DNA of 64,000 bases from Dioscorea cayenensis subsp. rotundata (taxonomy: Eukaryota; Streptophyta; Magnoliopsida; Dioscoreales; Dioscoreaceae). How positions within the stretch are numbered: the first letter of the stretch is position 1; each line of letters opens with the position of its first letter. Positions 34,017-64,000 of the stretch are shown piece after piece. The stretch lies in contig NC_052471.1 of NCBI RefSeq assembly GCF_009730915.1, positions 29,856,185-29,920,184 on the forward strand, in the 5' to 3' direction. Under the pieces are notes generated by a model. It was not told the origin of the DNA. It made no database searches and saw only the letters and a program-made list of their open reading frames with translations. The position numbers were made by a program, and so were the translations under genes.

Positions 34017-36070
34017 TTAAACACTCTGCTTCCTCAGCTTGCTCAGTTCCTGTCTAATAGTGTATCCCCTCTGAAAACAACAGAAATGCAAATAAGACAT
34101 TTGAAAATTTTGGTAGATTATTATACAAGACGAAAATCTGAGAAATAAATAAGCACACACCTTGATCTTCGCCAACATAACCTTGAACCTGTCAAAGTCA
34201 GTGAGGGAGGCTCTCCTCTTTTGCACAATCAGCTTCCTCCCCCATGAACTGTTCTCCCATTTGTTCTTCACATCTGACATACAAATTTTTCATTTTATAA
34301 GAAAACACACTCATAAGTGATAACAATAACAGGACAACAGCTGTTAAAATTTTAAAAAAATATTTTTGTACCAGCTGCTTCCATGGCAGCAATCAGTGTC
34401 TTCTTTTTAGGAATCCTTGGGATGTCAATCTTAATATCAGTCAGGCTCAGCCGCTTGAAATTCATCTGGCCTCGTACCATGTCTGGGGCATCAACCAATG
34501 CCTGGCCATACTCAATATTGGTTAGAATACATGTCATACAACATCAATAAAATCTAATAAATTGTGTTAATTTGGTGGAGTGAATCAATTGAATTGTTTG
34601 TTATTCATGATAAATACTTGGTTAAGGACTAATCATCAATGTCCAAAAAGACAATGGCTGACTGATTCTCAAAGGCTAAAATGCACTTTTATGGTTCTTG
34701 TATTTTACTGTATTATTATTTTTGTCTCTATATCGCTAGAATACTCAACACTGTCCCTTTGTATAAAAAAAAATGTTCATTTTCATCCCTAATCCACTCA
34801 GCAGTCAGTTAGATATGCATGCATTGTTTAATCTATTTTTTGTATGATGTAACTTATTCTTTAAACATAGATGCTGATGTCACTTGCGAACGTTGCTTAA
34901 TCCAAAGAAACAGTTTTTTTAAATAATCTAAGAAAAAAACAATCTAATTGCTGATGTGGCATTGATTATTTTTGTTCTCAACAAAATAAAAGCTACATAA
35001 ACAGCTCATATGGCATAACAAAAGGGCAGATTAAAAAAATCCACGCATATCAAACTGTACACTCAAATCAGCATGATTGACAAAAATGAACATTTTTTAT
35101 ATACACATCGACCATATTGAACATTTTGGTAATATAAAAAAAATCAACAATATAGCCAAAAATGCATTTCAATCATTCTAAAACCAGATATTTCCAGTAT
35201 AAAAATGAACAAAAGAAAACATAACCAGAAGGCTAAAAATGCAATGGGGTTTCAGCTAATTAACACATTCATCTCACTACTACCTCAGATGTAATTTCGA
35301 AGTGCAAATGCATACAACATTACTTTAATATTACTGTTGCAGATGCAAATAAATCCCTAAGCAACCACTAATAAACACATAACCATAATCCAATAGCCCA
35401 ACCATTAGATTCAAACCACAAATTAGTTCATGGTACATATCTCAGCATGAAAGTAAGTAATCATTAGCAACAAAATTACTTATTTGTCTTGACAAAATGT
35501 CTAATCCAACATTGGTCATGAATATGCTCATTGAAGCAAACCAAACACAAGATCAAATATATTTCTACACAAATAAGCATATATTTTCAACAAGATAACT
35601 TCGATTCTGGAAAACCAACTAAACGCTAACACTCTATTATTGAAAAATCAAACAGTAAGAATATGATCAACAAGATAACTTTTATTCAGAAAACCAACAC
35701 AATGCTAACACCATATCAATGGAAAAATCAAACAGTTTTCCAAATCGTAAACCCTAAGCGTCCACTAAAGATATATCCATAATCCAACAGCACAAGGGTT
35801 CCTCCACAGCTAATTTGAACACGAAATTTTCAAAAAAAATGATAGAAAATCCATCCATGGCACTACAAAAACCCTAATTTCAGATCAAAAAAATGCTCAC
35901 GGATACAAAAATCGATACGGCAAAAGATCACTCACTCGATTCTGATCGATCACATAGCGCTTGAACGGCTTTGAAAAATCACAAAATAAAAAAACTTTTT
36001 TTAGAGAAAAATCAAAGCACGAACCATATTGAAGAACCGAAGAAAAACACCAGATGAATCCTCTCACCAT
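34017..36070 (-). CDS. RPL14: 60S ribosomal protein L14 with internal deletion
   Basis: Large-subunit ribosomal protein eL14. Five exons read from high to low coordinate: 36070-36068 (ATG only), 35968-35936, 34501-34372, 34273-34161, 34070-34017; 110 aa. Recognisable blocks are PFKRYV, then [59 protein letters not shown] and [13 protein letters not shown]. An ATG-only first exon with donor GTGAGAGG fits a ribosomal-protein gene layout. Relative to the usual about 134 aa, exon 2 jumps from RYV straight to IDQNR: about 23 residues (family sequence starting EIGRVAL and ending VIVDV) of the KOW/SH3-like barrel are absent, in frame. Introns are kept, so this is not a processed copy. It may be a non-functional paralogue, an alternative allele or a misassembly. 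Introns of 70-1434 bp; the 1434-bp one holds a TIR element. Confidence 0.9.
34672..35175. mobile_element. Non-autonomous TIR element (MITE-like) in RPL14 intron 2
   Basis: A roughly 500-bp unit with diverged inverted ends of about 110 bp. The left end contains AAAATGCACTTTTATGG and, further in, AAAAATGTTCATTTTCATC. Read on the minus strand, the right end gives GAAATGCATTTTTGGC and AAAAATGTTCATTTTTGTC at the same spacing. There is no coding capacity. It lies inside the intron 34502-35935. Exact borders and a target-site duplication could not be fixed. Confidence 0.6.
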
Positions 36071-40618: not shown

Positions 40619-42933
40619 TGGAGAAAGGGAAGAGATGGAAGCGAAGAAGAGAAAGAGGGGGCGGTTTGAGTGGGAATGTATGCATATGGGTTTATAGGAT
40701 GTGGAAGTAAAATGACGATTTTGCCCTCGTAGATGGTGGCTATAAAAAATGGCAGTTGTTCTTACAGACTTACAGAGCCGTAGTTTGTCAGAGAGCAGGA
40801 GCAGGAATGATATTACTGTAATACCCTTTACGTTTTATTATTTTTATAATAATTATATAAAAAAAAGAAAATATAGATTTTATATTATTTTATATGAAAT
40901 GGCAATGGAGTAGTATTCACTATTCATTAGTGTTGATGTGAGTGTAAGATAACCTTAATTTTATTTTTGTATTTTTTTTATTTTATTTGTTTTTTCCTAG
41001 GAATCTTCTGTTTTTATTTGCATGAGAAAAGCATCATAGGGTGGGTTGTTGCTTTGAAAGTCGGGGAAAATTAATCGGAAAAAGATGAACGGCGGAGAGA
41101 GATGTCGGAAAGCGTGAAAAAGAAGGAGAAGGTGACGTGGCGGGACCCGCCGCCACGGCAGGAACAAGGGAAGAGGTGATTGGTTGTTGGCAGCCGCCGA
41201 CAGTGAGGCGACAACGGCCTGGGATTTTGAGCGATATCTCAGTGGGCCCCAATCACTGTTTACATTTTTTTGTCGTTTTCCTCCATAATCAACAAGTACG
41301 TAGGTTGAATCACGTGCCATGCAACTGCTCTTTTGAATTATTATATTTTTTATTTACTTTTTGTTTACATATACACCCCTGATAAATTGTAAAATTACAC
41401 TGCAATCCCATAACCTTCAAACAAAATTACTAAAAAAAAAATATCCCTGTATATTTTCCTTGTTATTGTATAGTCCTTTTAACTTCTTTTTTAAAAAATC
41501 TTTATTTTTTTGAAATTTTTTTTCTTATTCAATATTTTTAACATTTTAATAGAATATTGAAAATATCACCGATATTAATAGAGTGTGACTACGTGAGATA
41601 AAGATAATATTATAATTATAATTTAATTTTGATTTAAAAGTAAAAGTGTTGCCGTTAAAGATGTGTTAGAGATTTCATAAATTTGAAAGACTAAAAGAGC
41701 TTGAGAGATTTGTTGGTACTTTCTTCTCAAAATTATATTCTTGTGAATATATGTGTATATATATATTGAAAAATTATGGTTCTTTATGAACGTACAAAGG
41801 TAGTTAACTTATTAATAGGTATTTGAAAAAAAAATTATCTCTAAAATTATAACGCTTGAAATCATTTAAAAAAATAGAAAATAAAATAAAAATTACTTTT
41901 GCTTTTCAACATTATTTGGAATTAATTTTAAAATATAATTTTAGAATTTTTAAAAGTTTTGATTTTTTATGTGCATGATTATTATGCAAATTCAACACAA
42001 CATGTGTGTGTGTGTGTTTACAAACCAAATTGAATAACAATTTCAACAATTTCTTTATCAAATAAATAAATTTGATTTTATTGAATCTAGTATGGATTTT
42101 TTTTTAACTCATTATAAAGTTAATTAGTAAAAACCATCAATGCCTCCTCTCTAATTATGAAATTTTTAATTAAACATAAATGACAATAATAATAAGATTT
42201 TTTTAAAGTTATTTCAACTGTTTTGTTTTGAATTTTTTTTTCCCATCTCTCTCAACACCAGAATATTTATTTTAAAGTTATTAAAAATGGAATTAATTCA
42301 CTGCATTTAGGTTGTACTAAAATATTTATCTGGATTATTGAACCCATACTAACATCATTAAGACACACGAGCTTATATCAGCATACAACTGAATTAATAA
42401 TTAAGTAACAAAAATTTTATAATACAAAATAAACATCTGAAATTTGGTATTGTAATTATAAATATATATATATATATATATTGCAAAAAAATTGAAATAT
42501 ACTTTTATATTTATTTAATTTGGGTATGATTAAAAATTTTTAAAAGAATTTGGGTATAATTTTTTTATATCTATTTCATGCTTTTTTTCCTAAGGACAAA
42601 AGTCAATTTAAATATTTTTGAATTATCATAAATAATAAACTAAGAGGGGATACTTATTTATTTTTTATAATAAAGGAAGACAATGTTGTGTTTTTTTATT
42701 AAATTATAATAAGAACAAAATAAATAAATAAATAAAGGCGTTCTATGAAATGGGCATGAATATTTACATTATTATTATTTATTTTATTTTTAATTAATAA
42801 AGTGGATTAATAATTTTTTTATTTATTATTTTAATAAATGTTATTAAGTTATCATAAAATCAAATCCAATCCACTGGATTATAATTTTTCTGATATTAAT
42901 ATACTAAACGGATAACTTTGTTATAAAAAAAAG
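40619..42933. other. Intergenic region left of the transposon
   Basis: About 2.3 kb. 40619-41330 is the promoter side of the LRR gene and includes a GC-richer patch (41120-41230) with GGTGACGTGGCG, a G-box/ABRE-like ACGT core. 41330-42933 is AT-rich, with (TG)n at 42004 and (AT)n at 42463-42482. No coding sequence with family content was found. Confidence 0.45.
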
Positions 42934-43599
42934 TGGAAATTGCCAAAAAAACCCTACAACTTTGCCAAATTGCCAAACAAACCCCCATAGTTTCGGAATA
43001 CCCAAAAACCCCTTCTTTTTTAACTCCATGATTTTGAAACCCCCAAAGTACGTAACGGCATTAAACGGAGTGTATTTAAAATTTTATGACTGAAAATGCC
43101 CTTGCACGGGAAGTCGTGGTCGCACTCCATTTCAGGGCGTGTGAGAGGAAGTGGGTGGGTTTTTCTTAGGCATTACAACGTTGCCTTCTCTCAACTCACG
43201 ACTCAGCTCAACTCGCGCTCCAGCTCTTCTCTTCCCACCCAAGACTCTTCCCTTTCCACCGTGCCTCAAGAAGAAGTCCCTGCAAGTATTCGAGATTTCG
43301 TCACTTTGCAGCCTAAGGTATTCATTATGGTTTTTTTGTTAACTATTCTACTACGAAGAGACATTTTTTTCGGTTTTTGGTTTGTGATTTTGTTTTTGTT
43401 GGAAGACATCAAGCTTTCGAGGGGATTAATCGACTGGGGTTTTTGTTAGTCTCGAGGAGATGTCTCGCTAGGGTTTTTGTTTTGTTTTTACATTTTCGCT
43501 CTATGTATACGATCGAAATGGTTTTCCGATTGTTGTGCTTTGTGTAATGTTTATAATCTACGTTTACCCTTTCAGTTGATATGGTTGCAGTTGTAAAAA

Positions 43600-43765
43600 T
43601 GAGGTCTCCGTTTAAACAATGAGCTTTTTACCGCTTTAAGTTAGTTCGCCTCCGCTTAATTATTTGTATCTCTGCTTAATAGTATACGCCATCGCTTAAA
43701 AAAATGATATCGGTGTTTAAGAACCGAGTGTTTACCGCTTAACAAATTACATTTCCGCTAACAAT
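43600..43765 (+). repeat. 21-bp-period motif array A1
   Basis: Eight motif cores (CGTT, CGCT or TGCT followed by TTAA or TAA) start at 43609, 43632, 43653, 43673, 43693, 43714, 43736 and 43756, with spacings of 20-23 bp. The sequence between cores is not conserved. It lies between the element's leader and its first recognisable coding block. Confidence 0.8.
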
Positions 43766-44644
43766 GTGCTATTATCGTCGCAGCTTTGTGATTACGGGCG
43801 GTCAATCTAGTTAATGGGCGATGCTACTTGACACCCGTAGAGTGGAGACCGCGGTCGAATCGAAAGTTCACATGATCCCTCGACATCGGGAGATCATCCG
43901 AAGGACACCGCTCACGAGATTTCATCGAGTTGAAGTCAGATACCAAGAGCGGGCCCTTCTCGACTCTCTCGCAGAGATACGATAACCGCACTAATAAATT
44001 CAGGATCGGGAAAGCATCGCGACTTTCGAGCCCTCAAGATGTGGCAATCGTCTTTGGCTCGCGTTGCGATGGGGAGGCGATCGTGCTTTCGAAGAAGAAA
44101 AACACTGCCACTTTCAAGAGAGGTATTTATCGAAGACGACGAGAGACACAGAGACTCCATCAGAGCACTCTTCAAAGAACTCGCTGACGATGAGGGGAGA
44201 AGAGGAGAATTTTGCCAAACCATCGATGGTGTACCTCGTGGGTACAATCCTCTTCCCAAATACCTCCCCGCCGGGTTCCTAATCGGATCGCTGATTATGT
44301 CGATGATCTACCCGGAATGGGGCGCCACGCATGGGCGCAAGCGACGCACAAGTGGCTTATGGAGGACATACCACAAGCCGCTACCCGAGTGCAATCTAGA
44401 TGCGCTGGGAAGAAGACCAACACCGGGTATGTTAAGGGTTGCACTCGTGAAGCGCTTTTAACATATGGTTTTACTGAGTCGACCGAACCCGGAAAGAAAG
44501 TCCGCTTCATGCAAAATCCCAAGAATGTCTGTGCTACTGTGAAAATACTTTCACCTGAAGCAAGCTGACTGATAGAGACGAGTTTGTCATCTCTCGAAGG
44601 AAAAGAGGTAATAATTCAAAAAAATATTTTTGTTTAACTCGTAA

Positions 44645-44850
44645 ACTTTAACGCTTTAACCATATCATTTACCGCTTAACTTTATTCATCTATCGCTTTA
44701 ACATTATAACTTACCGCTTAACTTTGTTCAACTACCGCTTTAAACTTTTAGTTTAATGTTTAATTTGTTTTGTTTACTCGTTTAACACAATAGGTTATAA
44801 CGTTTAAATATACTGAGTTACATGTGTAAATATAGTTTTAATTGTTTAAA
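44645..44850 (+). repeat. 21-bp-period motif array A2
   Basis: Five cores of CGCTTTAA or CGCTTAA begin at 44652, 44673, 44694, 44715 and 44736, an exact 21-bp spacing four times in a row. More degenerate copies (CGTTTAAC, CGTTTAAAT) follow at about 44779 and 44800. The array fills the spacer between the first two coding blocks. Confidence 0.88.
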
Positions 44851-45964
44851 CTAAATAATTTCGCTAAGATTGTTTGCTTTTACACATGCTAGTTTCTCGA
44901 GATGGTTCCGCGAATCGTCGATGAAGAAGTATTTGTTCGGGCCAACCGCTCGGTCGGATGCTATTGCTCCCGAACCGCTTGCTCAAAGGCAAGATGAGAG
45001 GGCAACCTCTTCCTTGCGCTACCGGACGCCGCTTTCTCCCCGCTTCGAGCCAAAAACGCATCTCGCCGAGGGCCGAAGAAGCCCTCCCCACCCCGCCCGA
45101 CCGTGGCTTCCCCGACCGTCGCCCCCCGAACGCGTGGCGCCTCGCCAGACTAGGGCGAGGATGTCATCGCAACTCTCATGCGAGGCTTGCAGATTTTGAT
45201 GATCGAAGTTCCCTCGGCTGTCGCTCGGGTGGAGGCATTGAAGGCCGGTCACGCCACAATCGATCGCGCCTTCCCTTCAAACAAATGAAGCACCCGGGAC
45301 GGATACGCCGTCGGAGTTCGACGACGAGGACATCATTGGGGTGGCCCTTCAAAGACGGCCTCATTCAAGAAGCTTGCAAAAAGAGGAAAAACAATAACGC
45401 TCTCCGTCTCCACCCGCGCTTACCGACGATGAAATAATAGCAGAGACCATCGGGCGGCCGATGTTGTTAACGCTGATGACATGCCCATCACGGTGGAGGA
45501 GATCAAGATGGCGCTGAGTTTGCCGTGGTGGAAAAGATCGTCGACTCTGTTGTTGACGACATCATGCATACGGTGGAACCGGCGCCTGAAGAAGAACAAC
45601 CAGACAACGTTGTGTCTCCCATTGATGCTGCTGCCGTGGAACTCACGGTTGAGAAGGTCGCTGAGTCTATCCTCAACGGCGGAATTCACTTGGAACCAAC
45701 GGCCGACCGCGCCGCATCGAAGGCGCACACAATCCCACAAGAACAAGAAGCATGTAAGGAAGTGTCTCCCGCTGATGCCGCTGTCGTGCCCCCATTAAAG
45801 GAAGCCAATAAAAGTAGAAGAACTTCGGAAAGTCTTCATTCAAGAAAAAAATACGCTGCCAATCGCGCCTCAATAAGTACTGAAAGCAGGAGTTGATAAG
45901 GATCTTCCTCAACCGCCCTCTATGGACAAGTAAGTTTGAAGTTTTTTTATGATATTGTTTAAAA

Positions 45965-46135
45965 CTGCTTTTAGTTACCATTTAAGTAGGAGCGTTAACG
46001 CTTTAAAAATTTTCATGATAACATTTAACTTATAAGTGATACCCTTTAAATATTACCGCTACTGCTTAAACATTCAATATAGAATTTAAAGTTTATACTT
46101 TAACGCTTTAATTTTATACTTACAACATTGTTTAC
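45965..46135 (+). repeat. 21-bp-period motif array A3
   Basis: Cores (CGCTTTAA, CCCTTTAA, TGCTTAAA and ATTTAAA variants) sit at about 45966, 45999, 46020, 46042, 46063, 46083, 46104 and 46129, mostly 20-22 bp apart. The array fills the spacer between the second and third coding blocks. Confidence 0.75.
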
Positions 46136-46974
46136 ATGTCTTTGTTCCGCTCAACCACAAAGACTGCCGTGTGGAAGAACGACTCGCCAAGACCACACGC
46201 GGCCAATCTATTCGACCGCTCGAGGGGAAGGAGATGGTCACGCATCGATGTGATGGACGCATTCAGTATGTATCTTGCAAAAGACGATGAGCGTAGTGCC
46301 ATATCGCTATAAGAGGCGCCGCTCCATCACACGCCACCGGGCCTTGTTCATGTCAAAGCGAGGCGACGACGCACATGAATCCACGATGGCTATGATCGAG
46401 ATGCCGCCAGCAACTTGCATGAAGTGGACATCGCTCATCCTCCCGATAATTATGAGTGGCCACTTCCATGTCGCTCGCCCTCGACAATGAAAAACAAGAA
46501 TACGTGCATTATTCTTCATGCCAAAGCGAAGAATACGATAAAAAACGCGCTAGAAATGGTAAGTGATTTAATAATTTGTGTTTGTGTAATAGTGTTCGGT
46601 AGAATAATCGCGATTCTAATATGAACTTGTATATCTCGACAGCGGAACCTATTCGACATCCTAGATCGACATGGAGTTGGGCGAGTCGGGCGATCGCAGT
46701 ACCCGCTTGTTCACGAGCATCGAAGCCCCACGACGTAAAAAGGAAGTGTCGATCGCAGCTGCCTATGTCATGCGGTTTATCGAAAGCGCTATCACGGTGA
46801 GAAGCTACGGGTACTGCAGACCGACGTCCCTTATCTCAGCGATTAAGGTATGTTTCCCGCGATACTTAGGGAGGGGAGGGCACCGCATCATAGCCAGAGG
46901 GGAGTCTTCGCAAGTGGGTTCTTAGTCATTCTTTCTATATTTGTATACACGATTCTTTCTTTAATAATCCGATT

Positions 46975-47070
46975 CATTGTTTAACATACACTTTCGAGTG
47001 TTTAAGCATATAGTTCATTGTGTAAATATCAATGTAATTAGTTTAAACTCCGCTTTTACTATGTAAAAAC
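46975..47070 (+). repeat. 21-bp-period motif array A4
   Basis: TGTTTAA and TGTAAA-type cores at about 46978, 46999, 47021, 47041 and 47062, 20-22 bp apart, immediately after the Ulp1-like C-terminal block. Confidence 0.6.
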
Positions 47071-47364
47071 GAACCGTAGGGGAGTGTACGCAAGCTGGGT
47101 CATAGTCATCAGATAGGTGTAATAGTTTCAAATGTAAACCGCTTTTAAATTCAATTCATTTTTTTCCAAGAACATGACAAATTTTGTCAATGTAAATGTA
47201 CATGTATCTAAATTCAATTAAATTCATTCTGCTTCGCTTTTGAGGTTCCGCTCTTGTTGGATGATATTGTAGTCCGTAGGTACATTATCGGGTAGGGTTC
47301 TGCTTTCATTTTCATTTTCATTATCGGCTAATATCAACATTCATTTTAACTCAGATAATGATAA

Positions 47365-47520
47365 CTTTTTGCTCTTTAACTTTCGCTTTTCTCTGCTTTA
47401 AGTTTAGGTTTCTCTGCTTTAAATTTAATATTTTCTGCTTTAAAAATATCCTTATTATTTAATAATATCAATGTAATTACAACAAAAAAATATACTTAAT
47501 ATTTTCCGCTTAAAAATATC
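47365..47520 (+). repeat. 21-bp-period motif array A5
   Basis: TGCTTTAA cores at 47394, 47415 and 47436 (exact 21-bp spacing), with weaker copies at 47370 and 47457, and CGCTTAAA at 47517. This is the last array in plus orientation. Confidence 0.7.
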
Positions 47521-47654
47521 CTTATTACTTAATAATCTCTTATAGAGTGTAATGTAATGTTCCGATTTTTTTATGTGCGACGTGAGTGGAAACGCTGGGG
47601 AACCGAAAGCGTGTATTAATTACGCTGGGGAACCGCTAGCACCATCCCGTTGTA

Positions 47655-47770
47655 CATTTTAAGCGGATACAAATTTATTTTAAACGATAAAAATAACAGT
47701 TAAACAGAGAATAAAATATTTAAAACGTAAGAGATATATTTAAATATAAAGTTCAATATTTAAACAATAA
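47655..47770 (-). repeat. 21-bp-period motif array A6, inverted orientation
   Basis: Here the plus strand shows the complement: TTAAGCGG, TTAAACGA, TTAAACAG, TTAAAACG and TTTAAATA with cores at about 47661, 47683, 47703, 47724, 47744 and 47763 (20-22 bp apart). The motif is thus in sense on the minus strand, as is the convergent right-hand gene. Confidence 0.75.
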
Positions 47771-48267
47771 TAAGAAGTATATACACAATGCCTAGTTCGG
47801 AATGATTCATTCCACGATCCGCGATCGTGACTCAAACGTGGCAATGGCTACAACGCAACTTCATGGACTCGGACGCTACGACTCGATCCTCTTTCGCTCT
47901 AGGACACCCAGTTGCCTTCTCGTCACAAAGTGTCGCAAACGCAGTCATGATTTTCATCCATCGACTCGCTCATTGTCCCGAGTATGGGGAATATAGCTTC
48001 CTTTATACGCCATTTTTGAAGTCGAAGCTTCCTTCCACAAATCACCCGTGTTTCTCGCTCTTCAAGAATTTGAAGTCAAAAATTCCTTTTGATTGCAAAA
48101 ATTCCTAAGTGCGCTCTCGAAATGTTCAACGCCTTCAAAACATCTGTCCAATATCCAACGACAACACTTCGACTTGATCGGATGAGGAAGGAAGGCATGC
48201 CACACCCTCGAGCTCGCCATGATGTGGGAAATGCGTACCGCAGATTCTCGAATTCGCCAACACTTTA

Positions 48268-48400
48268 GTTTAAACGAACACGATCAATATTTAAACAGAG
48301 ACACAAAAATATTTAAATGATAAACATAAATCTTAAACGTTAAAAACAAAAAGTTAAATAATAAGTTAATAAGTTAATCGGAGATAATAGTGTTTAAATG
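48268..48400 (-). repeat. 21-bp-period motif array A7, inverted orientation
   Basis: Plus-strand TTTAAACG, TTTAAACA, TTTAAATG and CTTAAACG have cores at 48273, 48294, 48315 and 48336, then 48357: exact 21-bp spacing. It lies between two blocks of the minus-strand gene. Confidence 0.85.
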
Positions 48401-49022
48401 GAAACTTGATAAATGTAAACGATGGCATGTGGATAATAAACAATAATTAACTTCTACAACTATATAAATATAAACGAGAAGAAACTTACAACGAGAAGAA
48501 CTCGCTTTTCGAGGGATACGATGCCACATCATCCGCTCCCCAACAACAAGATCAACAATGTAACATTTGAAGATGGAGTGCACGTGACACATGCTACTGA
48601 AGTCAACCTCGCTTTTATATGAGACATACTGCTTTTATGTCCATCGGGTGTGATAAACTTCACCCCGACACTGGAAATATCGAGACCCCATCGTCACATA
48701 TTTCACCTAACACCGATTCCCAAGAAGTCGTCAGTGAACATTAGCACTGTCCCCTCCCCGTTGTATCTAAGAATAAAGCACAAAAACTCTCCATAATTTA
48801 ATCCAAGAGCTAAAAATCGAATACACCAAATGAGAAGAAGAAAAAAAGAAGAAGAAGCAGTAAAGAAGAAGAAGAAGAAGAACAAGATATGAGCCTTCTA
48901 AACTTTGTTTCGAGTAAAAAGCAGCGAAGATCAAAAACTATGCATAAAAGAAAGTTATGATCGGTGCCATTTTTTTCCCACCTTTGCAAGGCAAAAAAAG
49001 GAATTTCATATCGCTGACCCAC
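48374..49022 (-). other. Second, minus-strand gene of the transposon (5' part)
   Basis: Near the right terminus a minus-strand frame begins at 49022 with MGQRYEIPFFALQRWEKNG. The second element copy encodes MGPCCEIPFLALKMVGKK at 62705, the same distance from its own terminus, so this is a conserved coding start. Downstream frames (for example MCHVHSIFKCYIVDLVVGE from 48592) are short and interrupted. The position expected for a MULE transposase gene fits, but no transposase motif is visible, so the function is unassigned. Confidence 0.45.
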
Positions 49023-49310
49023 TTCAACTTACCTACAGGGGTTAAAAGGAATGTAAAATATAACTGAGACCGTCTCTAAAAGTAAAAAGTTGGAGGGTTT
49101 TTGGGAAGTTTTTGAAAAATTACGAGGGTGAATAGTAATTTTCCCTAAAAAAATATATATATTTTTTTATTTTTTTAAATTTTAAATTTTAATTATAATT
49201 TAAAATTAATTTTCAATTTTAATCCATGTTTAAAATGTGCCCGCGGAGAATCTATTAGCTTTACTTGATTCAATTCTTATCGAGATCGAGATCGAGATCG
49301 AGAGAGAGAG

Positions 49311-58319: not shown

Positions 58320-60596
58320 ATGAACACCACCATCTTCCCTCCCAAACTCCCCATCCTCCCAACCACCAAAACCACCACCTTCAGATGCACCACCACCACC
58401 ACCACAAAACCACCACCACCACCACCACCTTCACACTTCCATAAACTCCTAAAGAGGTCATACAAAGCCAAAAACTTCAATGAATCCCTCTACTTCCTCT
58501 CCTACTTAACCTCCAAAGGCCACCAACCAGACCTCATCCTCTCCACCAAACTCCTCACCACCTTCCTCTCTTCTGGCCAAATCTCCAAAGCTCTCAAAGT
58601 CATGCAAATTCTTGAGTCCCATGGCCATCCTGACACCTTCTCCTACAACTCCCTCCTTTCTGGCCTTCTCAAATCCAACCACTTCTCCACTGCTCTCCAA
58701 TTCCTCCCTCGCATGCGCCTCCATTCTTGCCCTCCAGATATCATCACTTACAACATCCTCTTATCCCATCTTTGCAACTCCTCAAATAACAACCTCCTTC
58801 GTTTGGCCATGAATGTCTTGAACCAAATGATTGATGACCATTGCCAACCTTCAGTTGTTACATACACTATCCTCATTCAAGCTAGCATTAAGCGAGGTGG
58901 GATTGAGGAAGCATTGAAGGTTTTGAGTGAGATGTCCTCTAAAGGACTTCAACCTGATAACTATACTTGGAATGCTGTCATTAAAGGTCTTTGTAAACAA
59001 GGCTTGGTTGATTCTGCTTATGATCTTGTTTCCAAGCTTTGGCCTTGTGATCACAATTACAACACTGTTTCTCATGATCAATATCAACAACAAGTGCCTG
59101 ATGTTGTTTCTTATAACATCTTGTTGCGTGCTTTCTTGGATGAGAGGAGATGGAAAGATGCCGAGAGATTGATGAATGAGATGATGATGGTTAGAGGCCG
59201 GCAACCGAATACTGTCACTTACAGTGTTCTCATCAATGCGCTCTGTCAGGTATTTTATAATATGTTTGGTTTGTATCTAACGTAGCAAAATAAGTGTTGG
59301 AGATTGCATTACTTTGTTTGCTATGTGATACGATGGATGATTCTTTATGTGCCTTAATTTTAGAAGATTTATATGAACTCTAGTATAGAATTGAAGTTGA
59401 CTTGTATCCACGATCATTTTTTATTAGATGTAATTGTAAATACAGTAGATTCCAGGAATAATGTAGTTCGGACTGTAAGTTGAAAATGCCGCGATATAGG
59501 TTTTGAGGTAGTTCAAGTTCCATATGGAAAGTATTTTCTAAAGTACTTGAAAATCCAAATACACCCAAATAAAACATAGCATAAAAAAAACCATTTAAGA
59601 TGCTATAATCTTAACAATCCCATGTTTGATTAGTTAGTTTGTCATGTGATTAGTATGAAACAAAGAGAATAACTACCATATAGAATGAAAGTTATTTTAG
59701 GATTTATAAGTGAAACACTTGCATCATCTAGTATCATAGCTTAATTATAAGTAACAAAAAAAAAAAAACTTGTTAGTTAATTTAGTTAACATGTGTTCGG
59801 TTTGCGTCTAACATCAGGAAGGCTTGGTAGAGAAAGCAAGAGAAGTGTTGTTTGATATGATATCGAGAGGATTGAAGCCGAACACTTACAGCTATGATCC
59901 TCTAGTTTCAGCATACTGTAAACAAGGGAAATTGGACTTGGCAATCGAATTTATGGATCATATGGTTTCAAATGGTTGTCTTCCTGATATAGTGAACTTC
60001 AACACAATTATCGCCGCTCTTTGCAAGAATGGTAACTCCGATCAAGCTCTACTAGTGCTCGAGAAGCTAAGAGAGAGTGGTTGCACACCGAATTCTAGCA
60101 CATACAATGCGGTGATCGGTGGCTTATGGAATAGCGGGAAAAAGGCGAAAGCTCTTGAAATGGTATCAGAAATGCTCGAGAATGGGATCGACCCGGATGA
60201 AGTCACTTACAATGTGATAATCTCATGCTTGTGTAGAGATGGAATGGTGGATGAGGCTGCAGAGATGATGAAGGATATGGAGAGATGCGGATTAAATCCT
60301 TCGGTTATTACTTACAATGCCGTGATTCTCGGGTTCTCGAAAGCACACCGAAATGGATATGGCTATCGATGTTTTTGCCGAGATGGTTGAGAAGGGATGT
60401 AAGCCTAATGAAAATAGTTATGTGATTTTGGTTGAAGGAATTGGGTTATGCTGGGCATAGAACTGAGGCAATGGAGTTGGCAAGAGAGCTTGTGAAAAGA
60501 AATGTTGTCTCTGGTGATTCTGTTCATAGGCTCAATAGAACTTTTCCAATGCTTAATTTGTTCAGAGAAATTCCTCAATCAAAGCTCAAAGTGTGA
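58320..60596 (+). CDS. P-class pentatricopeptide repeat protein (At3g04760-like)
   Basis: Organelle RNA-binding PPR protein, about 568 aa. Two exons: 58320-59249 and 59818-60596. The N terminus is Thr/Pro-rich (MNTTIFPPKLPIL, then a Thr run and seven prolines), consistent with a plastid transit peptide. About twelve 35-residue repeats follow with typical text: PDTFSYNSLLSGLLKS, PDIITYNILLSHLCN, PSVVTYTILIQASIKRGGIE, PDNYTWNAVIKGLCKQGLVD, PNTVTYSVLINALCQ, PNTYSYDPLVSAYCKQGKLD, PDIVNFNTIIAALCKNG, PDEVTYNVIISCLCRDGMVD, PSVITYNAVILGFSKAHR. The C-terminal end is VHRLNRTFPMLNLFREIPQS. No E/DYW domain. Two +1 breaks are inferred in exon 2, near 60352 (AAA) and 60447 (GGG); with both allowed for, the frame closes at the TGA at 60594. 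Confidence 0.92.
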
Positions 60597-61050
60597 TTGA
60601 TTGATTTATTTTATTCAATTGTAAAGCAAATCATCATTTGTAGATTTATTAACAAGCACTTGATTTGGTGACAATGCCGGGAATTTGATCCTTTGTTGAG
60701 ATTACAATTAGGTGACAGTTTATGCGATTTTATTTTATTTTATTTTTTTTTTTGTCTAAAAAAAATTCTGTTTGTATGTAACATCTTTGTCATTATAAAT
60801 GTCCACTTCTATAAGTTTTGTATGTCTCAAATTATCTATCTACATGATTAATATAAGGGACTTTACCAACTTGTTGAAATGCAGTGTCTCCATGATTGTC
60901 ATTTTATTAAATTCACAATGGATGGAAAGAGAAATGGGTAAAATGGGAAAAGTAAGTTAAATGTTCATGAAATCTTTAAATTTTTTTACTTTACATTAAA
61001 TGGTTCAGACAAACACTTACAAAAGGAATGGAAGAAGTATTACATGTACA
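60597..61050. other. PPR gene 3' flank up to the gap
   Basis: 3'UTR and AT-rich flank, with a T-rich tract at 60730-60752. No gene seen. Confidence 0.5.
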
Positions 61051-62050
61051 NNNNNNNNNNNNNNNNNNNNNNNNNNNNNNNNNNNNNNNNNNNNNNNNNN
61101 NNNNNNNNNNNNNNNNNNNNNNNNNNNNNNNNNNNNNNNNNNNNNNNNNNNNNNNNNNNNNNNNNNNNNNNNNNNNNNNNNNNNNNNNNNNNNNNNNNNN
61201 NNNNNNNNNNNNNNNNNNNNNNNNNNNNNNNNNNNNNNNNNNNNNNNNNNNNNNNNNNNNNNNNNNNNNNNNNNNNNNNNNNNNNNNNNNNNNNNNNNNN
61301 NNNNNNNNNNNNNNNNNNNNNNNNNNNNNNNNNNNNNNNNNNNNNNNNNNNNNNNNNNNNNNNNNNNNNNNNNNNNNNNNNNNNNNNNNNNNNNNNNNNN
61401 NNNNNNNNNNNNNNNNNNNNNNNNNNNNNNNNNNNNNNNNNNNNNNNNNNNNNNNNNNNNNNNNNNNNNNNNNNNNNNNNNNNNNNNNNNNNNNNNNNNN
61501 NNNNNNNNNNNNNNNNNNNNNNNNNNNNNNNNNNNNNNNNNNNNNNNNNNNNNNNNNNNNNNNNNNNNNNNNNNNNNNNNNNNNNNNNNNNNNNNNNNNN
61601 NNNNNNNNNNNNNNNNNNNNNNNNNNNNNNNNNNNNNNNNNNNNNNNNNNNNNNNNNNNNNNNNNNNNNNNNNNNNNNNNNNNNNNNNNNNNNNNNNNNN
61701 NNNNNNNNNNNNNNNNNNNNNNNNNNNNNNNNNNNNNNNNNNNNNNNNNNNNNNNNNNNNNNNNNNNNNNNNNNNNNNNNNNNNNNNNNNNNNNNNNNNN
61801 NNNNNNNNNNNNNNNNNNNNNNNNNNNNNNNNNNNNNNNNNNNNNNNNNNNNNNNNNNNNNNNNNNNNNNNNNNNNNNNNNNNNNNNNNNNNNNNNNNNN
61901 NNNNNNNNNNNNNNNNNNNNNNNNNNNNNNNNNNNNNNNNNNNNNNNNNNNNNNNNNNNNNNNNNNNNNNNNNNNNNNNNNNNNNNNNNNNNNNNNNNNN
62001 NNNNNNNNNNNNNNNNNNNNNNNNNNNNNNNNNNNNNNNNNNNNNNNNNN
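61051..62050. other. Assembly gap (1000 N)
   Basis: Exactly 1000 unknown bases, so probably a fixed-size placeholder; the real length is unknown. Any open frame spanning it is meaningless. Confidence 0.99.
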
Positions 62051-62116
62051 AGAAGATGTAGTACAAAATGAAAAAGGGAAGGGATATATGAGTAAATATA
62101 TAAATCAAAACCAAAA

Positions 62117-62278
62117 CAATATATTAGTCATACTAAATTACTGGAGATGGTTAAATGATTAAACAAAGATAGGAGGTGAGGAATAGCGAAATAAAATCAA
62201 TATATTAGTTATACCAAATTACTAGAGATAGTTAAATGATTAAACAAAGATAAGAGGTGAGGAATAGCGAAACAAAAT
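62117..62278. repeat. Two copies of an 81-bp tandem repeat beside the gap
   Basis: Copy 1 is 62117-62197 and copy 2 is 62198-62278. Each begins CAATATATTAG, contains GAGAT(G/A)GTTAAATGATTAAAC, and ends AGGAATAGCGAAA-like; they differ at only a few positions. More copies may lie in the gap. Confidence 0.9.
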
Positions 62279-62704
62279 ATATACAGCATACTTGACAGAA
62301 AAGATCATTCATCTATAACCACTCTATTAAACTGGAATGTCAAATATTTTTGGTTTTGTCCTTAATTTAATACTTCATTTAATGTATGTCATGACACTTA
62401 AAATTTTGGACAGAAGATTAAAAAAAAACATATGATAAATTAAAATAAGCATTAAAATAGATGGAATGTTGGTGTTGATTAAAAATGCGGCTATTACTTT
62501 CAAGATTAAAATTTTTAAAAAATTATGTATCTTTATTTATGGTTTTTATTTGTTGTATATATGTAATAAATAAAAGGGAAAATTACTGTTCACTCATCGT
62601 AATTTTCAAAACTTCCCAAAAACCCCCTCCTACTTTTACACATCCCGGACAGCCCTTCCGTTAGTGTTTAACTTCCCTTTTACCCCCCTACTGCTCACTC
62701 TCGA

Positions 62705-62812
62705 ATGGGTCCATGTTGTGAAATCCCATTTTTGGCCTTGAAAATGGTAGGAAAGAAAAGCGCCAAATCACATCATGCTCAACCTTTTCAAGGGCTCGCT
62801 TGGTTTCGATAG
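62705..62812 (+). other. Conserved coding start of the MULE's second gene
   Basis: ATG at 62705 opens MGPCCEIPFLALKMVGKKSA; the first copy has MGQRYEIPFFALQRWEKNG on its minus strand at 49022. The shared MG..EIPF.AL at the same distance from the terminus points to a real protein N terminus. The frame is short here; function unknown. Confidence 0.45.
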
Positions 62813-63114
62813 ACAATGCCTAGGAGTTGCATTACATCTTGTTGTTCTCCTCATTATCATACCCGAAAATATATAAATCGCTTTCTCAAACGTAAAATGA
62901 AATTGATTTCCATCGGATCGGGTCAAGTTCACTTCATCTTCAAAACGAGATCGTAGTCGATTTTTATCGTCGAGCGCAGCATGTCGCCATTGTCGCCTTC
63001 TCGCTTTATGGTAGTAAAGTTAGTATTACTGACAGAAGAACAAGAATTACGACGAGTTCATTTCGTTGTAAAGTTCTTTCCTCGCTTATGGTTATCTATT
63101 TGTATATTTTTAAA

Positions 63115-63250
63115 TAATGTTTAACTATTTGCTATTATCCGCTTAAATAAATTTACTAATATGTTTAATAATTGTCATATCCGCTTTAATACTTGCCATC
63201 TCCGCTTAACATTATCTTTACATGTATAATCTGCTCATATTAACATGTAA
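63115..63250 (+). repeat. 21-bp-period motif array in the second MULE copy
   Basis: Cores (TGTTTAA, CGCTTAAA, CGCTTTAA, CGCTTAAC, TGTATAA) at about 63118, 63140, 63162, 63182, 63203, 63223 and 63246, 20-23 bp apart. Further CGCTTTAA, TGTTTAA and CGCTTAA occur at 63864-63935. Orientation is sense for the gene starting at 62705, as in copy 1. Confidence 0.75.
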
Positions 63251-63342
63251 ATTCTCAAAGTCTCGCGTAGAAACGGAGATCTTTTTCGCTTGATCCGAAT
63301 CGTTGGCAGCGGCACGGGCAGTGGCAAGGTTATAGATCCCGC

Positions 63343-63378
63343 TGCATAAGAATTAACGACGGCATTAATTCTTATGCA
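63343..63378. repeat. Perfect 14-bp inverted repeat (hairpin) in the second MULE copy
   Basis: TGCATAAGAATTAA at 63343-63356 and its exact complement TTAATTCTTATGCA at 63365-63378, with an 8-bp loop (CGACGGCA). It lies inside the element, downstream of the motif array; function unknown. Confidence 0.85.
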
Positions 63379-64000
63379 CGGTAACATAAATATCCGAACA
63401 CCCGCTCGCTGTCATCGACCAATGTCGGCCACTATGCGCTTAATTTTTTCTCGGGATATGAAGAGTCACCGCTTGTGGACTTTCACACCATAAATAACCA
63501 GGGAAGAACCCTCCCCATGGACAACCACCCTCGTCGCCCTCATCCTCCTCTTCCCACGGACAACCACTCTATTTGAAAGGATGTTTCGTGAACCTTCTTC
63601 CCTTATCTTGAGAATCATTTAGCCGCAATCACGCAACAGTTAAACTATCTTTTTTTCGCCTAGTCGAAATGCTCTCACAATCGCCTCGAATGCGCAGGGA
63701 TTCTTCAGCGTGGACGACGGGCAAGCAATTAGCCGAGCATTTCGACTTGGGTAAGAAAAGAAAGTTTTCACGATTTCGTGATTGCGGAGGATTCTCTGAG
63801 GAGGGAGATCGTGAAACATCCCTTTAAGACGGGGTTGATATTTATCACTGAGACTTTCTCATACCGCTTTAAGAAAAATTACGTCAGCAGTACAACTATT
63901 ACGCTCCGTGTTTAACTATAAGGATCTTCGCTTAAGTCCCGACTCACGACACATTAATTAATAGTCGCTTTTTCATGAATGTGTTTGTTTAACCTTTTTA

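Follow-up and report, generated by a model that had tools for sequence, protein, structure and literature searches.

The 64,000-nucleotide stretch of Dioscorea cayenensis subsp. rotundata DNA analysed here (contig NC_052471.1; hereafter the window) carries a Mutator-like element (MULE) whose introns and intergenic spacers contain arrays of a short core, YGTTTAA, repeated in direct orientation and in phase. The same phasing is conserved in a diverged second element, and the first element carries, judging from its domain matches, a PMD/DUF1985 gene opposed to a transposase fragment. Since these arrays match in kind the targets of the VANC protein of Arabidopsis VANDAL21, we propose with moderate confidence that a VANC-like anti-silencing protein of the element docks on them. 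The first element, its coding blocks and its arrays are as follows (loci outside the window are designated by our own numbers, such as L066):

42932-49146, no strand assigned: first MULE-type element, about 6.2 kb, with limits common to 20 copies, many of them internally deleted; copy L066 is 88.3% identical
43609-43742, plus strand: array A1, 7 cores, in a putative 5′ intron
43781-44610, plus strand: coding block A, PMD/DUF1985 domain, frames broken in the window copy
44631-44849, plus strand: array A2, 10 cores
44881-45930, plus strand: coding block B, linker without recognised family; the corresponding 318-amino acid (aa) open reading frame (ORF) of L066 has no credible Pfam match
45956-46111, plus strand: array A3, 4 strict cores and weaker in-phase TTTAA cores
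46141-46880, plus strand: coding block C, probable Ulp1-like protease (Peptidase_C48), frames broken, containing a putative 84-bp GT-AG intron
46978-47513, plus strand: arrays A4 and A5, with 6 cores, in the spacer that follows the Ulp1-like block
47659-47766, minus strand: array A6, 5 cores
47791-48260, minus strand: coding block D, fragment of a MuDR-type transposase DNA-binding domain, frames joined by eye
48270-48339, minus strand: array A7, 3 strict cores and weaker in-phase ones, in a putative first intron of the transposase gene; homologous place in L039

A scan of the first element (43000-49120) with the strict core pattern [CT]G[CT]TTT?AA revealed 28 matches on the plus strand and 12 on the minus strand. 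In a set of nine spacers (1,884 bp; seven from the first element and two from the in-window part of the second), sense cores (n = 44) greatly outnumber those expected from 300 dinucleotide shuffles (3.7 +/- 1.8, maximum 8), and antisense cores number four against 2.05 expected. All the distances of at most 70 bp between sense cores in these spacers fall within 20-23, 39-44 or 57-65 bp, and 25 core pairs are separated by 20-22 bp, where randomly placed cores give 3.0 (never more than 9 in 2,000). An autocorrelation that makes no use of the motif gives z >3 at lag 20 or 21 in seven of the nine spacers; it stays below 3 in spacer 47110-47560 (z 2.5 at lag 21 and 2.9 at lag 22) and is weak in spacer 63850-64000 (z 0.6). 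The seven arrays of short cores spaced by about 21 bp that an original prediction, made from the letters of the window alone, had described are therefore real. Its exact 21-bp steps were also recovered in two places, four of them in succession (44652, 44673, 44694, 44715 and 44736) and two others (47394, 47415 and 47436). The right arrays do lie on the minus strand, as it had stated (47659-47760 and 48270-48333), the last array, to which it had attributed three exact steps, having one step of 42 bp in the strict pattern. A sequence of about 25 bp (ggggagt.t.cgcaag.tggg...tagtcat), recognised by eye, is present in two copies around array A4 (46880-47110), as would result from duplication of a 3′ segment.

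The cores are located in introns and intergenic spacers, away from the element ends. None was found on either strand of coding blocks A-D (3,140 bp), in agreement with the predicted avoidance of coding sequence, and the outer 659 bp and 656 bp of the element contain one and no core, respectively. This distribution bears on the possibility that the arrays are phased sites for the transposase or for an accessory protein assembling a transposition complex, in the manner of TNPA from CACTA (En/Spm) transposons. TNPA recognises repeated short motifs that are subterminal in the transposon. The arrays described here are also made of short direct motifs regularly spaced in a DNA transposon, and the N-terminus of MULE transposases is a DNA-binding domain. 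However, sites of this kind are expected at the ends, whereas these arrays are internal, and we regard this explanation as unlikely.

The sense of the arrays tracks each of the two convergent genes, plus on the left and minus on the right. The switch, which had been predicted to lie between these genes, is indeed found there, between the final plus core at 47507 and the first minus core of the right arrays at 47659. Sense prevails relative to transcription, as predicted, with few exceptions (minus matches at 43061, 43612, 46066 and 47002, plus match at 48391). Array orientation agrees with the transcription of both genes not only in the first element but also in L066 and the second element, and sense orientation is likewise seen in a diverged relative, L039. 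This orientation, the principal argument for the predicted splicing role, would fit a signal acting at the RNA level, the sense repeats of introns and 3′ regions being splicing signals or sites for RNA-binding proteins; moreover, TTAAC is similar to the plant branch-point consensus. However, the base following TTTAA is a pyrimidine in only 43 of 98 cores (0.44, compared to a C+T background of 0.57 in array letters), the putative 84-bp intron of block C (46559-46642, recognised by its GT...AG ends only) is devoid of cores, some arrays are placed beyond the last coding block that can be recognised, and a period of two helical turns has no evident reason in RNA. The suggestion that the arrays are repeated branch points is thus unsupported, and an RNA-level signal of any type appears quite improbable.

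The second element, which had been missed in the original prediction, begins at 62575 with arrays of the same kind:

62575-64000, minus strand: start of the second element, inverted relative to the first and running about 5.5 kb past the window (locus L059)
63118-63209, plus strand: array matching A7, z 3.4 at lag 21
63865-63992, plus strand: second array of this element, 4 cores, weak (autocorrelation z 0.6)

It is located about 13 kb downstream of the first element, to which it is roughly 70% identical (62-78% in matched blocks), and its arrays are found at corresponding places and in corresponding orientations. Among its core pairs separated by at most 70 bp, 60 of 62 are in phase. Likewise, 103 of the 115 pairs examined in 10 chosen loci are in phase once the central match is removed, about 25% being expected. 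Furthermore, phasing of YGTTTAA or of its misread form (see below) extends to diverged elements and, among 30 loci, to four groups defined by DNA similarity. In L039, an intact 300-aa ORF carrying both a MuDR DNA-binding domain (PF03108, E 2.8e-17) and a MULE domain (PF10551, E 2.1e-15) is immediately preceded by an array in the same sense. The peak near 21 bp, whose survival in diverged copies had been put forward as a check, therefore persists in the second element, in other copies and in other families. Core identity between the two elements (0.64-0.86 with a shared core compared to 0.48-0.67 elsewhere, A7 having no shared core) was not used as evidence because it is biased by the definition of the core. 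The second element also includes two self-complementary stretches, one of 165 bp (63623-63787, 65% match to its own reverse complement) and a shorter one of 36 bp (63343-63378, 89%).

The search was extended to the 584-Mb assembly of the same genome, in which triples overlap and are thus not independent elements. Phased triples of YGTTTAA at 18-23 bp number 12,701, compared to 30 control triples at 24-29 bp and to 16 matches of the reversed pattern; triples with an inverted middle core (n = 373) may in many cases result from the palindrome GTTTAAAC. In the 54 rows printed, the spacings are of 20 (n = 62), 21 (n = 40) and 22 bp (n = 6), and none is of 18, 19 or 23 bp although the pattern allowed them. 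The consensus extends beyond the letters that define the core, to approximately KTYWCYGTTTAAM. The prediction of phased protein-binding sites on one face of the DNA fits the spacing of about two helical turns, kept across diverged elements and genome-wide, as well as the freedom of inter-core DNA to vary in most arrays; its proposed model, TNPA of CACTA, is not retained. A single core common to otherwise diverged elements would fit a constant host partner, such as a transcription factor or a chromatin protein, for which the arrays would be a platform without any partner encoded by the transposable element (TE). However, on contigs C1-C7, eight of the 41 DUF1985 matches are no more than 10 kb away from any of 85 typed triples with an inverted middle, whereas 0.4 would be expected (maximum 3 in 2,000 shifts). 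This ties the motif, through a rare phased subset, to a type of TE gene, and no candidate host protein was identified; a host factor alone is accordingly a rather improbable explanation.

The DNA located between the cores had been described as not conserved. It is indeed mostly dissimilar, neighbouring units being less than 0.7 identical in 40 of the 54 rows, but not wholly unrelated: mean identity between neighbouring units is 0.56 over all 54 rows (0.35 when shuffled), and neighbours are at least 0.7 identical, that is, near-identical tandem repeats, in 14 rows (about a quarter). Over all 54 rows, inter-core identity is 0.43 compared to 0.34 when shuffled; these values supersede an earlier figure (0.40 compared to 0.35) obtained from 22 of the 54 rows that had been hand-picked for being different. 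Since neighbours are this similar and near-identical rows this frequent, many arrays would have begun as tandem repeats, as VANC targets do, the core and the period mostly outlasting the rest. That the arrays are nothing else than ordinary tandem repeats, with the spacing as a relic of the repeat unit, is very unlikely: although 44652-44743 doubles as a 42-bp tandem repeat (86% match) and the neighbour identities point the same way, core and spacing are kept in the 40 dissimilar rows, and a single 20-22 bp period is shared by 68 distinct inter-core sequences.

The letters of the core required a separate examination. In an alignment of 22 copies, inter-core DNA is near-invariant but the core itself alternates between CGTTTAA, CGCTTAA and CGCTTTAA. 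Among close copies, substitutions amount to 0.022 in cores and 0.027 elsewhere, and indels to 0.050 in cores and 0.027 elsewhere. This excess of indels spoke against conserved letters and brought the misreadings in the assembly to light. A core more variable than the neighbouring DNA is odd for a conserved site. Copy L066, the best-read one, which retains an unbroken ORF of 304 aa, was used as a reference. At CTG/CAG sites, the 21 other copies differ from it in 76% of cases, compared to 8-22% in most AT-rich contexts, and CAG is replaced most often by CGA, CGG, CG or CGAG and not by the CAA or TAG that deamination would give. In the misread copies of the family (42932-49146 and L009-L028), CTG/CAG is given as CCG, TCG, CTCG or CG. 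Along the 912-bp ORF of L066, 623 indel events were counted across the 21 copies. Positions within one base of a CTG/CAG site represent 17.5% of this ORF, yet 249 of the events fall there. Six other MULE loci show no insertion at CAG, but on 56 cells only. Both elements are poor in CTG/CAG (0.52 and 0.65) compared to the flanks (1.12-1.15), but so are some other MULE loci (0.61 and 0.64).

CGTTTAA of L066 appears in the copies as CGCTTTAA in 108 of 267 cases and as CGCTTAA in 99 of 267. The period is 20.93 in the window copy and 20.65 (about 20.6) in the best-read copy, the former being inflated because a misread core gains an extra base. When only the misread core (CGCTTWA) is searched for, 860 matches are obtained genome-wide and 21 backwards, far below the count of YGTTTAA. 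From this systematic misreading of CTG/CAG relative to L066, we conclude that CGCTTTAA and CGCTTAA are mostly misreadings and that the true core is YGTTTAA, as judged by comparison of copies. Therefore, the exact core letters of the original prediction, CGCTTTAA, largely correspond to an assembly artefact. The misreadings presumably result from nanopore miscalls at CHG-methylated sites in unpolished repeats; a literature search on such miscalls showed no paper among the results listed. It should be emphasized that the repeat sequences of this assembly carry systematic CTG/CAG errors, which give rise to spurious motifs, spurious CpG richness and spurious frameshifts.

Pfam scans of single ORFs and of single read-through frames of the window copy gave nothing relevant. 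With frames joined by eye, block A matches PMD (E 1.9e-4) and DUF1985 (E 9e-3), both under the cut-off. In contrast with these broken frames, the 304-aa ORF of L066 matches PMD with E 8.4e-15 (55.2 bits, cut-off 34.9); its DUF1985 match reaches 33.4 bits for a cut-off of 35.1, whereas the genome search gives 35.4 bits at that position, over the cut-off. On these profile matches, a PMD/DUF1985 gene is present in the element family. A search of PDB sequences with the PMD ORF gave nothing credible. Block C matches PF02902 with 22.6 bits (cut-off 20.7) in one of two by-eye joins and below the cut-off in the other, and this domain was absent from the single ORFs and single frames of the window copy and from the ORFs of L066 in Pfam scans; its Ulp1 label is thus probable. 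Block D matches PF03108 with 26.5 bits (cut-off 25) in one by-eye join and 20.8 bits in the first join, and no MULE catalytic domain was found in the scanned frames of the window copy. The gene bearing the Ulp1-like part and the transposase fragment are clearly opposed. A sensitive self-comparison of the first element revealed no inverted match between its left and right parts that would point to long terminal inverted repeats. The layout, a PMD/DUF1985 gene with a Ulp1-like part facing a MuDR-type transposase fragment, appears to be that of KI-MULEs, and gene content and layout together suggest a KI-MULE/VANDAL-like element.

The arrays would thus be cis-acting docking platforms within a KI-MULE/VANDAL-like Mutator element. 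A YGTTTAA core in direct orientation every 20-21 bp, that is, two helical turns, would place all the sites on one side of the DNA, where a TE-encoded protein of the PMD/DUF1985-Ulp1 type, the counterpart of VANC, may bind them side by side. Such binding could keep silencing marks off the non-coding parts of the element and thereby allow expression of its genes. Like VANC targets, the arrays are dense, made of motifs in the same orientation and located in non-coding parts.

Several observations weigh against the docking of a VANC-like protein: (i) the motif is not private to one TE family, and the available text on VANDALs describes related Arabidopsis families with differing target motifs (PMC5735166), compared to one core across diverged families here; (ii) a plain DNA-binding model gives no reason to expect arrays in sense with both genes, a feature that may come from the way each array grew or from a link with transcription; (iii) if CHG methylation is behind the misreadings, as we suspect, these copies are silenced at present; and (iv) the ratio of CpG to non-CpG transitions is 1.96 in the element family and 2.08 in other MULEs. 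CpG observed/expected values are high in the two elements (1.28 and 1.30, compared to 0.52 and 0.39 in the flanks and 0.60-0.82 in six other MULE loci). However, CpG richness as a sign of past hypomethylation was abandoned, since the transition spectra are alike, CHG sites are more variable than CpG among copies and misread CTG inflates CpG. We also consider, more tentatively and as a possibility that we rather doubt, that a large and diverged superfamily of PMD/DUF1985 MULEs in this plant uses one common anti-silencing address, YGTTTAA on a ruler of two helical turns, always in gene sense and present in thousands of triples. Many families would thus have the same address, whereas in Arabidopsis each has its own. 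Selection would then act on helical phase and not on the intervening DNA, and the protein would recognise which side of the helix the sites face as well as the direction in which the genes are transcribed.

Besides the two elements, the window includes a host gene resembling pentatricopeptide-repeat genes, recognised by eye, with apparent one-base frame breaks (59800-60600), two tandem repeats of two copies each (62108-62278, 81 bp, 90% match; 35587-35736, 80 bp, 83%) and a gap of exactly 1,000 N (61051-62050).

Because the arrays are internal and accompany a PMD/DUF1985 gene, VANC targets are a closer precedent than the TNPA sites of CACTA transposons. Kaonashi MULEs (KI-MULE) and the Ulp1-bearing MULEs of melon, rice and grapevine would share with the first element, if its Ulp1 label is right, a Ulp1-like gene opposed to mudrA as in KI-MULE, and phased arrays are not mentioned in the portions of their descriptions available (PMC2528002, PMC13317346). 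Our literature search, restricted to open-licence papers, retrieved no report of phased arrays in Ulp1 MULEs or of GTTTAA repeats. According to the available part of a review, Ulp1-bearing VANDALs likewise recognise non-coding motifs (PMC13317346). In the text available from Hosaka and colleagues, VANC21 of VANDAL21 (Hiun) binds YAGTATTAY, the counterpart of YGTTTAA here, in arrays for which the main text mentions no fixed spacing, whereas the arrays described here have a period of about two helical turns (PMC5735166). Gene-sense orientation and the recurrence of one core in diverged families also distinguish them from VANDAL21 as described there (PMC5735166). As far as the same text describes them, VANC6 targets in VANDAL6/8 are likewise motif arrays in non-coding parts of related MULEs, but their motifs, AGTTGTCC and AGTTGTAC, are family-specific, unlike the present one (PMC5735166). 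Few cases are known of a transposon marking its whole length against silencing, or of a protein distinguishing its own copies from other genomic sequences. One core in diverged families, if true, bears on the proposal that fast divergence of targets limits damage to the host. If the arrays are VANC-type targets, this system extends beyond Arabidopsis, with a stricter geometry.

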